From assembly GCA_002255955.1 (NCBI GenBank), contig NKIM01000037.1:1-45264 (forward strand): a stretch of DNA of 45,264 bases. The letters are read 5' to 3'. This DNA comes from Burkholderiales bacterium PBB2 (lineage in GTDB: Bacteria; Pseudomonadota; Gammaproteobacteria; Burkholderiales; Burkholderiaceae_C). The position numbers and the translations under genes are program-made. How positions within the stretch are numbered: the stretch's first letter is position 1; every line of letters starts with the position of its first letter. The notes below the pieces were generated by a model. The model was not told the origin of the DNA. It searched no databases and worked only from the letters and a program-made list of their open reading frames with translations. This document shows, piece after piece, positions 37,229 to 41,374 of this stretch.

Positions 37229-37374
37229 GTAGCAATTTACAGCACCAAGCGGCAGCAGGGCGGCACTTGAGTGTGCGGACGAGACACCCAGGGAAGCGGT
37301 GGTTAGAGTGCGAAGCATCTCCCGAGGGGGAGCTTGATTTCAACCGCAACTTTTCCTTGAAAGCAGTCCACACC

Positions 37375-37914
37375 ATGAACAAATTTATCGCCGCCGCCGC
37401 CCTGACCCTGATCGCTGGCGCCGCATCCGCCGCTCCCGCTACCGAGAGCAACTTCTACATCGGTGGTGACATCGGCTCCAGCAAGTTCAAGGCCGAAGGC
37501 GACTCCGCGTCCAAGACCGGCTTCGGTGCCACCCTGGGCTACACCCTGAACCCGAACGTCGCCTTCGAACTGAGCGCACGCCGCCTGGGCTCCTGGAAGG
37601 AAGACGGCATCAAGGTCAAGGCCAACGCACTGCAAGCCTCGGTGCTGGGCATCGCCCCGATCACCAACGAGTTCTCGCTCTACGGCCGCCTGGGCCTGAG
37701 CCGCAACGCCGTGGACGCCACCGAAGGCAATGTCACTGCCTCCGCACACAAGACCAAGGCCCTGTTCGGTGTGGGCGCCAGCTATCAACTGGCCAAGAAC
37801 GTCAGCCTGCGCGGCGAGTACATGAACCTGGGCAGCAACAAGCTGGGCTCGGGCGCCGACACCATCACGGTCAAGATGCACCAGTTCAATGTCGGCGTGA
37901 ACTACGCCTTCTGA
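37375..37914 (+). CDS. Small outer-membrane beta-barrel protein (OmpW/OmpA-barrel-like), copy 1
   Basis: A 179-residue exported protein with a signal peptide (MNKFIAAAALTLIAGAASA) and an eight-strand barrel ending in FNVGVNYAF. It is a paralogue of the protein at 40053: they share YxGGDIGSxKFK, TGFGAT, AFExSARRLGSWK, LGIAPI, SLxGRLGLSRN-like and MHQFN-GxNYAF segments. Function (porin-like, adhesive or structural) unknown. The leader contains a CTCCC-GAG-GGGGAG hairpin and GAAAGCAGT just before the ATG, also seen in copy 2. An intrinsic terminator follows. Confidence 0.88.
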   Translation: MNKFIAAAALTLIAGAASAAPATESNFYIGGDIGSSKFKAEGDSASKTGFGATLGYTLNPNVAFELSARRLGSWKEDGIKVKANALQASVLGIAPITNEFSLYGRLGLSRNAVDATEGNVTASAHKTKALFGVGASYQLAKNVSLRGEYMNLGSNKLGSGADTITVKMHQFNVGVNYAF

Positions 37915-40052: not shown

Positions 40053-40583
40053 ATGAAGAAGATTTTTGCCCTGGCCGCCCTGGCCTTCGCCGCCGCCACC
40101 GCTTCCGCCGCTGACAACAGCTGGTACGTGGGTGGCGACATCGGCTCCACCAAGTTCAAGCTCCTGGGCACGTCCTCGACCCGCACTGGCTTCGGCGCCA
40201 CCGCGGGTTACCAGCTGAACACCAATGTGGCCTTCGAAGCCTCGGCACGCCGCCTGGGCTCCTGGAAGGTGAACGGTGACGAACTGTCGGCCAACGCCCT
40301 GCAGATTTCCGCCCTGGGCATCGCCCCGATCAACAACCAGTTCTCGCTGTTCGCCCGCCTGGGCGTGAGCCGCAACTCGCTGGACCTGGACGAAGGCAAG
40401 GTGACCTACTCCATCCACAAGACCAAGGCCTTCTTCGGTCTGGGCGGCGCTTTCCAGATCGACAAGGCCCTGAGCCTGCGTGCTGAGTACGTGAACCTCG
40501 GCAACAACAAGATCAGCGACGGCAGCGACAGCATCGAGGTCAAGATGCACCAGTTCAACCTGGGCCTGAACTACGCTTTCTGA
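40053..40583 (+). CDS. Small outer-membrane beta-barrel protein, copy 2
   Basis: A 176-residue exported barrel protein, paralogous to the one at 37375. Signal peptide MKKIFALAALAFAAATASA; mature barrel from ADNSWYVGGDIGSTKFK to FNLGLNYAF. The two copies share the whole barrel with scattered substitutions, so this is an older duplication. Upstream leader carries CTCTCCAGAGGGGGAGAG-type hairpin (about 39991-40009) and GAAAGCAGT before ATG, as in copy 1. They flank the questin-oxidase/soxR pair in the same orientation. A terminator follows at 40612. Function unknown. Confidence 0.88.
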   Translation: MKKIFALAALAFAAATASAADNSWYVGGDIGSTKFKLLGTSSTRTGFGATAGYQLNTNVAFEASARRLGSWKVNGDELSANALQISALGIAPINNQFSLFARLGVSRNSLDLDEGKVTYSIHKTKAFFGLGGAFQIDKALSLRAEYVNLGNNKISDGSDSIEVKMHQFNLGLNYAF

Positions 40584-40611
40584 TCCTCACCGATCTGAAT
40601 GCACTCCTCAA

Positions 40612-40637
40612 AAGCCCCGCAGCCGCGGGGCTTTTTT
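40612..40637 (+). terminator. Rho-independent terminator of barrel-protein copy 2
   Basis: AAGCCCCGC pairs with GCGGGGCTT around AGCC and is followed by TTTTTT. The stem is nearly identical to the terminator of copy 1. The structured repeat begins about 40 bases further on. Confidence 0.9.
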
Positions 40638-40677
40638 GTTGGCGAGTTGCGTTGTGAAGGGCCGAATGCGGCAAAGA

Positions 40678-40977
40678 GCAGCCCTTGCAGGTTGGGCTTG
40701 TGCCAAGGGGCATCGGGCGAGTGCTTCCGCTCATGTCCCCCGGCCCGCGCCTTGCGCGGACCTCCTCCTTGACTTCGCTTCAGCACTCACCCGACACCCC
40801 TTGGCAGTGCGACCGCTCGGCGTTTTCGCCGAAGGAGCAAGGCCTCCCTGGATCGGGTCGGCTGGGTGCTCTGCGAAGTGAAGTCAAGGAGGAGACCCCA
40901 GCCGCAGGCTGGGGTCGGGGGACATGAACGGAGCAGAGCGCCCAGTCGGCCCGATCAACAAGCAACCCAAGGGCTGC
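40678..40977. repeat. 300-base inverted pair of structured units
   Basis: Occupies the gap between barrel copy 2 and speD (40584-41002). Ends are GCAGCCCTTG and its reverse complement. Two units face opposite ways: the left on the minus strand (40701-40806), the right on the plus strand (40851-40956). Each has an outer stem of 24-25 bp, then GAAGTCAAGGAGGAG or a close form, a 9-10 bp hairpin, then CGGGGGACATGA, then the stem's other arm. Outer stems and hairpins differ in sequence but remain paired. No gene is present; short frames here are chance. It could be a MITE-like repeat or a structured RNA. Confidence 0.75.
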
Positions 40978-41002
40978 TTCGTGCCGATAACAGCCAACCG
41001 AT

Positions 41003-41374
41003 TCAACCTCGCAACAGACGCTGCTCTCGCCGCTCGCGCGGCGCGAAGGCGTCGCACAGCAGTTGCATCAGGCGCTTCGCTGAAGCGCTGTTGTCGCCCA
41101 CGAGGTTGCAGACGTACACATCGAGCGTCACGCCCCCCAACTCGGGCCAGGTGTGGATGGCCAGATGAGATTCGGCCAGCAAGACGACGCCCGTGATGCC
41201 GCTCTGCTCACAGCCAGGCGCGACCTCAAAGCGATGGAACAACTCGGCCACGGCGCCCAAACCTGCCGCCTGCACGGCATCGCGGCACAGGCGGCCGAGA
41301 GCCTCTGGGTCCAGCATCAGAGGCGACTGCGGGTCGCAGCCACGCAGATCAGCAGTCAGGTGCAAGCCCTGCAC
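41003..41374 (-). CDS. speD: S-adenosylmethionine decarboxylase proenzyme (prokaryotic class 1B type)
   Basis: A 123-residue self-cleaving enzyme that makes decarboxylated SAM, the propylamine donor for spermidine synthesis. Cleavage at Glu68-Ser69 (AESHLAIHTWPE) generates the pyruvoyl group. His74 and Cys89 (VYVCN) keep the 5- and 20-residue offsets from the serine found in the Thermotoga-type enzyme. The start is GTG, 15 bases after the moaD stop, with GAGG upstream, so it is probably co-transcribed with moeA-moaD. The spermidine-synthase-like gene is 5.4 kb away on the other strand. Confidence 0.92.
   Translation of the reverse strand: MQGLHLTADLRGCDPQSPLMLDPEALGRLCRDAVQAAGLGAVAELFHRFEVAPGCEQSGITGVVLLAESHLAIHTWPELGGVTLDVYVCNLVGDNSASAKRLMQLLCDAFAPRERREQRLLRG

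Follow-up and report, generated by a model that had tools for sequence, protein, structure and literature searches.

The window, that is, the whole stretch of 45,264 nucleotides analysed here, contains an inverted pair of folded units between an outer-membrane beta-barrel gene and a convergent S-adenosylmethionine decarboxylase gene. The first-pass annotation had proposed that the pair carries the traces of selection on two divergently transcribed RNAs. The question raised by this locus is what kind of element the pair represents, on which strand of each unit selection would act, and whether the fold matters for movement, for the genes at which the element is found, or for both.

The element in the window

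The copies found in the genome of the window align from GGC.G....CGGCA to the inverse of the same sequence, and the element so delimited is 336 bp long (approximately 40660-40995), its ends lying slightly beyond the span 40678-40977 considered earlier. The two outward-pointing units, their stems and hairpins and the single strands that they share were all found where the first-pass annotation had placed them. The features of the element and its neighbours are as follows.

40660..40995, no strand: whole mobile element; conserved extent among copies of the same genome
40660..40684, no strand: left end, GGCCGAATGCGGCAAAGAGCAGCCC; alignment of copies
40701..40806, minus: left folded unit, minus-strand reading; covariance-model match of 116 bits, four G-U pairs
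40782..40806, minus: left unit, 5' arm of the outer stem, partner 40701-40725; base-by-base pairing
40762..40781, minus: left unit, conserved loop strand 1, GAAGCGAAGTCAAGGAGGAG; unit comparison
40743..40761, minus: left unit, inner hairpin, variable; unit comparison and pairing
40726..40742, minus: left unit, conserved loop strand 2, CGGGGGACATGAGCGGA; unit comparison
40701..40725, minus: left unit, 3' arm of the outer stem; base-by-base pairing
40807..40849, no strand: spacer of 43 bp separating the units; sequence
40850..40957, plus: right folded unit, plus-strand reading; covariance-model match of 114.8 bits, three G-U pairs
40850..40874, plus: right unit, 5' arm of the outer stem, partner 40933-40957; base-by-base pairing
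40875..40894, plus: right unit, conserved loop strand 1, GAAGTGAAGTCAAGGAGGAG; unit comparison
40895..40915, plus: right unit, inner hairpin, variable; unit comparison and pairing
40916..40932, plus: right unit, conserved loop strand 2, CGGGGGACATGAACGGA; unit comparison
40933..40957, plus: right unit, 3' arm of the outer stem; base-by-base pairing
40971..40995, no strand: right end, the left end inverted (GGCTGTTATCGGCACGAAGCAGCCC on the minus strand); alignment of copies
40053..40583, plus: upstream neighbour, outer-membrane beta-barrel gene; Pfam PF13505
41003..41374, minus: convergent neighbour, S-adenosylmethionine decarboxylase gene; Pfam PF02675

The stop codon of the S-adenosylmethionine decarboxylase gene lies 7 bases from the right side of the element. 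Between the beta-barrel gene and the element, a hairpin followed by a T run (approximately 40610-40637) was read by eye as a terminator; the terminator scan of the window listed none in this stretch. The window contains two paralogous beta-barrel genes, at 37267-37914 and 40053-40583, which are 2.1 kb apart and 75% identical in DNA sequence over approximately 500 bases; the second directly precedes the element.

A base-by-base recount of the non-Watson-Crick positions gave seven, the number originally claimed: the left unit has three in its stem and one in its hairpin, and the right unit three in its stem and none in its hairpin. As the first-pass annotation had stated, the four mismatches of the left unit are G-U when read on the minus strand (40711/40796, 40712/40795, 40718/40789 and, in the hairpin, 40744/40760), the plus strand showing C-A, A-C and C-A in the stem and C-A in the hairpin, and the three of the right unit are G-U on the plus strand (40858/40949 U-G, 40861/40946 G-U and 40867/40940 U-G). 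In every one of the seven cases, the strand on which the pair becomes G-U is the one that carries AAGGAGGAG/CGGGGGACATGA. Seven out of seven is weak evidence by itself (two-sided sign test, p = 0.016), and relatives of the unit were therefore sought.

Size and distribution of the family

The count of copies proposed at the outset was performed with a covariance model built from 20 units of the window's own genome, a draft of 5.48 Mb in 90 contigs, and returned 34 unit matches in this genome, arranged as 14 doublets and six lone units, three of which are located at contig ends. Identity to the copy of the window is 84-92% among the longer copies, with one exception at 72%, a pair at C23:63.6 kb whose stems are rewritten; the lone unit at C82:714-821 also has new stems. 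In another copy (L011, C23:122112), a further palindrome is found inside the loop of the right unit, between GGGGGA and CATGA.

A pattern scan of named genomes detected at least 119 stretches. The carriers among the stretches listed include Rubrivivax, Hydrogenophaga, Rhizobacter, Methylibium, Variovorax, Paucibacter and others, and further Sulfurisoma, a Rhodocyclales bin, Luteimonas, Pseudoxanthomonas and Lysobacter, genera whose placement in orders and families we in part presume. With strict filters, and with the own genome counted, units were present in at least 95 of 200 genomes in a sample of the window's family and in at least 5 of 369 genomes in a sample of the class; five genomes searched individually contained 12, 3, 12, 18 and 20 units. 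The window element had no match in plasmid or phage collections, and the loop pattern was found near the end of one viral contig. No description of this repeat family was found in the literature covered, which excludes most subscription journals; papers in which letters of the motif occur appear, judging by their titles, to concern other subjects.

Covariation and strand of the fold

The 300-nt region folds with an energy 11.6 and 12.0 standard deviations below that of shuffled sequences on the two strands; some of this stability comes from the fact that either unit is an inverted copy of the other. Each unit is predicted to consist, on its own strand only, of a 24-bp stem, a purine-rich internal loop and a terminal hairpin. 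The covariation that the first-pass annotation had expected in homologues was observed: two-sided changes occurred in 25 of the 34 pairs among 20 units of the own genome and in 33 of the 34 among 147 distinct units of other genomes, and in neither comparison did any of 500 shuffles reach as high a value. In the 147 distinct units, 95.9% of the pair cells were standard pairs, as against 37.5-43.5% when the partners were slid by 1-3 columns.

The mismatches add information on the strand. In alignments fitted to the model, which may favour standard pairs and in which the strand is set mainly by the loops, the outer stems of 340 distinct units contained 635 G-U and 80 A-C mismatches (346 aligned rows, one contributing alignment comprising the best 150 of 177 matches), so that the parity of G-U and A-C considered in the first-pass annotation as contrary evidence was not observed; among 180 representatives with stems less than 80% alike, the corresponding numbers were 312 and 51. 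The remaining 291 outer-stem mismatches are skewed too, with 169 G-A/A-G and 18 C-U/U-C. Moreover, of 390 units, 379 were predicted to be more stable on the unit strand than on the complement, and 10 to be less stable. The covariation establishes the predicted fold and strand of each unit, and these counts support the view that selection acts on one strand per unit, namely that bearing AAGGAGGAG/CGGGGGACATGA. It is important to mention that the G-T mismatch is well tolerated in single-stranded DNA hairpins, and for this reason the G-U pattern identifies the strand and does not distinguish RNA from single-stranded DNA.

An Rfam scan of the window and eight loci gave no match at the gathering threshold. 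Among 22 sub-threshold matches, the best, to microRNA models, were far under the thresholds, and the matches to microRNA models were taken as artefacts of long hairpins.

The internal loop

A similarity filter retained 305 of 356 distinct units, and the loop was analysed in these. In these units strand 1 reads GNAGYGAAGTMAAGGRGGAG and strand 2 CGGRGGACATGARCGGA, and 24 of the 37 loop positions have one letter in more than 95% of units, a proportion which, owing to the filter, overstates the invariance of the family as a whole. Positions 30/79 covary as C-G/T-A and positions 33/76 as A-T/G-C, positions 41/70 show a reciprocal A-G/G-A exchange (AG 250, GA 45, AA 5, GG 0), and in 12-15 units positions 34, 77 and 78 switch jointly from GCGAAGT/ACATGAGC to GCGAAAT/ACATTCGC, which would replace tandem G-A pairs by Watson-Crick pairs. 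Since its positions covary, the loop itself is structured. In four GG doublets, every G (eight in all) is retained in at least 303 of the 305 filtered units, and a two-layer G-quadruplex core of the loop is possible.

The suggestion that AAGGAGG in each unit resembles a ribosome-binding sequence did not hold on comparison of the units: AAGGGGG is found in 46 of the 305, and because 45 of these have a reciprocal change on the opposite loop strand, the motif looks structural. A start codon with a ribosome-binding site was rejected as well, as AAGGAGG varies and the ATG of loop strand 2 has a T that changes in concert with a position of strand 1 (A-T 265, G-C 24, others 16; n = 305).

Arrangement of the units and genomic context

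The usual arrangement is the outward doublet (minus unit followed by plus unit), which accounts for 135 of 216 clusters. The gap between the units of 132 distinct doublets has a median of 45 bp and a range of 16-309 bp, and the spacers differ in length and sequence among the 26 pairs compared. Alternating arrays of four or five units, similar to BIMEs, were also found (+-+-+ at L224, -+-+ at L340 and L341). Lone units between co-directional genes were sense in seven cases and antisense in nine.

According to our own ORF heuristic, on which all statements on gene context are based, 161 of 245 distinct clusters could be classified: 76 between convergent, 83 between co-directional and two between divergent genes; 11 others are located within a predicted ORF and 73 were left unclassified. 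The other intergenic regions of more than 100 bp in the same loci (n = 151) comprised 16 convergent, 95 co-directional and 40 divergent ones (divergent versus the rest, clusters against background, Fisher p = 6e-12). In the non-divergent classes, the median distance to the neighbouring genes was approximately 45-78 bases. The element is thus placed at the 3' ends of genes. Among the sites common to several genera are some flanked by acyl-CoA carboxylase genes, some flanked by maltose-type permease genes and some that follow an aldehyde dehydrogenase gene.

A role as a substitute for terminators was rejected. Of 235 gene ends next to the element, 39 have a terminator-like hairpin on the side facing it, compared with 31 of 353 gene ends without the element; the proportions do not differ for convergent genes (29 of 152 with the element, 20 of 118 without), and for co-directional genes they are 10 of 83 with the element and 11 of 235 in the background, which includes short operon gaps. 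A recurrent partner gene was not recognised either: of the ten recurrent neighbours that were looked up, two had no Pfam match and eight belong to ordinary families (acyl-CoA carboxylase subunits, transport permeases, a solute receptor, an aldehyde dehydrogenase and a sensor kinase).

Mobility and ends

In genome G172, the sister of G060, the sites of two G060 elements are empty, the flanks being 89-96% identical. A possible repeat of 5 bp, ACCGC, can be read at one border, and the other is unreadable. The spread to many sites and this presence or absence between sister species show that the element is mobile. A RAYT/Y1 transposase was tried as the mover and rejected, as no unit was found within 33 Y1 loci (30 of 35 matches and three of the own genome) and 7 of 30 genomes, chosen mostly for their many units, had no Y1_Tnp match, those seven carrying from at least 12 to at least 19 units each. 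A small pre-existing palindrome was likewise discarded as the target, its exact pattern occurring in none of 18 genomes of the genus. The own genome has three genes for Y1 transposases of the IS200/RAYT type (L030, L031 and L032). Either flank of L030 carries AATTGGGGTCAGATCCCAATTA-like sequences, which bear no relation to the twin units.

In the window's genus, the ends GGCNG...TCGGCACA and their inverse are common to the element and to a second non-coding family of approximately 605 bp. This second family is palindromic, with two large inverted halves and CATGAGCC loops (L253:1497-2101, from C13:169112 of the own genome onward; also L252, L256, L262, L264, L267 and L275), and five of its loci gave no Rfam match at the gathering score. 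With up to two mismatches, the end pattern matched 126 times in the own genome and its reversed form 13 times. Thirty of the 126 matches were inspected, over approximately 110 bases each: eight had units, one a unit remnant, seven belonged to the second family and 14 looked like ordinary sequence, so the total of 126 is inflated by chance matches. Among these 30, no gene-bearing copy or autonomous relative with matching ends was recognised. The terminal ends were not seen in the copies of genus g60 that were inspected.

Both flanks of six element sites were found in the relative G207. The units are kept there at L011, L018 and L391 (one unit detected at the last), and at the sites of the window, L002 and L007 they are absent and other palindromes stand instead (L436, L437 and L212), of 130 bp (AACCACAGAGGCACGGAGG) at the window site and of 164 bp (GCAGAGGACCGCAGAGG) at the L007 site. 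The alignment of the G207 flanks extends to CGGCA and GTGCCG; this is clear at L007 and less so at the window and L002. In G208, two sites were compared: the doublet is kept at L002 (versus L248) and is flipped relative to the flanking genes at L009 (versus L247). Members of the 605-bp family were also seen beside the flanks of L008, L007 and L003, one flank only in each case (L439 in G207; L441 and L443 in G208). Two further G207 loci, L438 and L440, join the flanks of different own-genome copies (L003, L013, L006 and L008), as would result from inversions or translocations that broke at the elements, or from an assembly error in one of the drafts.

Possible conservation of the fold after insertion

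Compensatory changes at sites shared between genera were considered as proof of selection in situ. This argument was weakened by two facts, namely that copies resemble each other more within one genome than across genera at a common site, and that the element was replaced or flipped at some sites; close species pairs were relied on instead (G000/G207/G208 and G060/G172, with only those units whose stems are at least 70% alike). At these shared sites, the states involved in single changes comprised 30 G-U, 3 A-C and 14 other mismatches (p = 1.4e-6 for 30 versus 3). As neutral decay should give G-U and A-C in similar numbers, the skew suggests that the fold is selected at fixed sites, with RNA as the simplest object of that selection. 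The constraint is not strict, since 27 single-change cells stay paired and 15 cross between paired and unpaired; five of the pairs changed on both sides remain paired and one does not. Gene conversion or re-insertion may mimic selection in situ, because replacement or flipping of the element is seen at some of the shared sites, and we consider the preservation of the fold at fixed sites to be supported but not proven.

Possible explanations

Our preferred reading, to which we assign a probability of approximately 0.48, is that of a non-autonomous doublet mobilised in trans, which would behave like a REPIN or BIME and would be kept as a folded RNA at the 3' ends of genes. The mobile entity would usually be the doublet of two outward-pointing units, and a putative enzyme would recognise the loop in its single-stranded form and move the doublet in trans. 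After insertion, the transcripts running off the neighbouring genes would include one sense unit from either side by virtue of the symmetry of the doublet. The folded unit in the 3' region of the mRNA might serve as a structural barrier or a protein-binding site, a role for which the fold would be kept. Two observations count against the part played by RNA: the lone units show no preference of orientation, which a signal acting in cis in the mRNA does not predict, and in the window a terminator-like hairpin precedes the element on the side of the plus-strand gene. The chief rival, possible though in our judgement unlikely, dispenses with that part and regards the unit as a signal for single-stranded DNA transposition, in which an HUH or other single-strand transposase recognises the loop, the fold is of consequence only while replication exposes the strand, and the inserted copies have no function. 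The missing orientation bias of the lone units fits this rival, as do the identity among the longer own-genome copies, which indicates a fairly recent spread, and the strand-specific pairing, doublets and gain or loss of copies, which match the REPIN model (PMC3116915). Against it stand the 30 to 3 skew at the fixed sites of close species pairs, the genomes rich in units that have no Y1 match and the absence of units from the 33 Y1 loci. A reading that concerns the ends and is compatible with the preferred one holds that, in the window's genus, a transposase or recombinase acting at CGGCAC...GTGCCG moves or exchanges unrelated palindromic cassettes. The identical ends of the 605-bp family, the other palindromes at three G207 sites and the excess of end matches over the reversed pattern would all follow from it; it nevertheless seems doubtful, given that nearly half of the inspected matches (14 of 30) are ordinary sequence, that the copies of genus g60 lack these ends, that no gene-bearing copy was among the 30 of 126 matches inspected and that a possible target-site repeat was read at a single border.

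The proposal of two independent genes for small RNAs, both read outward from the spacer, corresponds to the original idea of divergent RNAs, of which the selection on one strand of each unit was supported and the two divergently transcribed RNAs were not. RNA-like covariation, the G-U pattern and the outward orientation of the usual doublet are what such genes would display. A scan of 40560-41060 for promoters of the sigma-70-like type, however, found none, the spacer is variable in both length and sequence, and alternating arrays and lone units without an orientation rule occur in the family, so we regard this proposal as very unlikely. Equally hard to credit is a site in double-stranded DNA, whether a BIME-like site bound by gyrase or by some nucleoid protein, or else a cruciform: although the arrays resemble BIMEs, and the scarcity in divergent and abundance in convergent intergenic regions, where transcription supercoils meet, would suit such a site, it provides no reason for G-U over A-C on one strand. 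The first-pass annotation had rightly argued that a DNA cruciform would leave no such bias. A bolder extension, which we find improbable, is a new class of mobile structured RNA in which a two-layer G-quadruplex or tandem-purine core binds one conserved host protein, the doublets at 3' ends are symmetric, and the sites in the window's genus are exchangeable cassette sites where a new kind of recombination swaps unrelated palindromes between identical ends; if it were true, the mRNA of either neighbouring gene would end in a sense unit.

Comparison with known systems

MITEs are short, non-coding elements with inverted ends, present at many sites and without a transposase. The element described here is similarly short, non-coding and present at many sites, and has inverted ends in the window's genus. 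It differs in that the conserved part is an interior single-strand fold and the inspected g60 copies lack ends. No parent transposon was recognised in 30 of the 126 end matches, and a possible 5-bp target-site repeat was read at one empty site. The first-pass annotation had allowed for a known MITE or REP with a matching transposase; no Rfam match at the gathering thresholds and no RAYT link were found.

In Escherichia coli, intrastrand triplex motifs of approximately 36 nt with the consensus CCCTCNCCC...GAGGG have been described (Holder et al. 2015, PMC4666352). They are, like the present units, purine-rich folding repeats of intergenic regions linked to variable loci; the consensus given there is unlike the sequence of the unit. 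A resemblance is also found to BIMEs and the REP-RAYT system, in which, according to Nunvar et al. 2010 (PMC2817692), REPs whose GT(A/G)G head precedes a GC-rich palindrome flank their RAYT gene. The alternating inverted units, short spacers, extragenic position and G-containing head 5' of a hairpin are shared with it, whereas in the present units loop strand 1 ends in GGAGGAG, a conserved 3' strand and an outer stem are added, and no RAYT was found beside any unit examined.

REPINs are doublets of REPs that form hairpins (Bertels and Rainey 2011, PMC3116915). They share with the element a mobile, extragenic inverted doublet with compensatory changes, gain or loss and clusters, and in both cases there is no gene within the element. 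In contrast to REPINs, the unit here is approximately 106 nt long, with its own variable stem, a nearly invariant internal loop and a hairpin, and the two units of the window have unrelated stems, so each unit would fold alone. Between 3 and 34 units were present in the six genomes searched individually, and because the link to a RAYT, which defines REPINs, was tested and not found, the element is not filed as a REPIN. The family is widespread in common environmental bacteria, without a link to the usual transposase, and its distribution and shared ends make both the putative mover and the putative binding partner searchable. For REP-like repeats, a fold needed for movement is hard to separate from a fold needed after insertion. 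In the family described here, the free stems, the near-fixed loops and the strand mark left by G-U mean that genome sequences suffice to read selection on a single strand, and this selection appears to go on after insertion where sites are shared.
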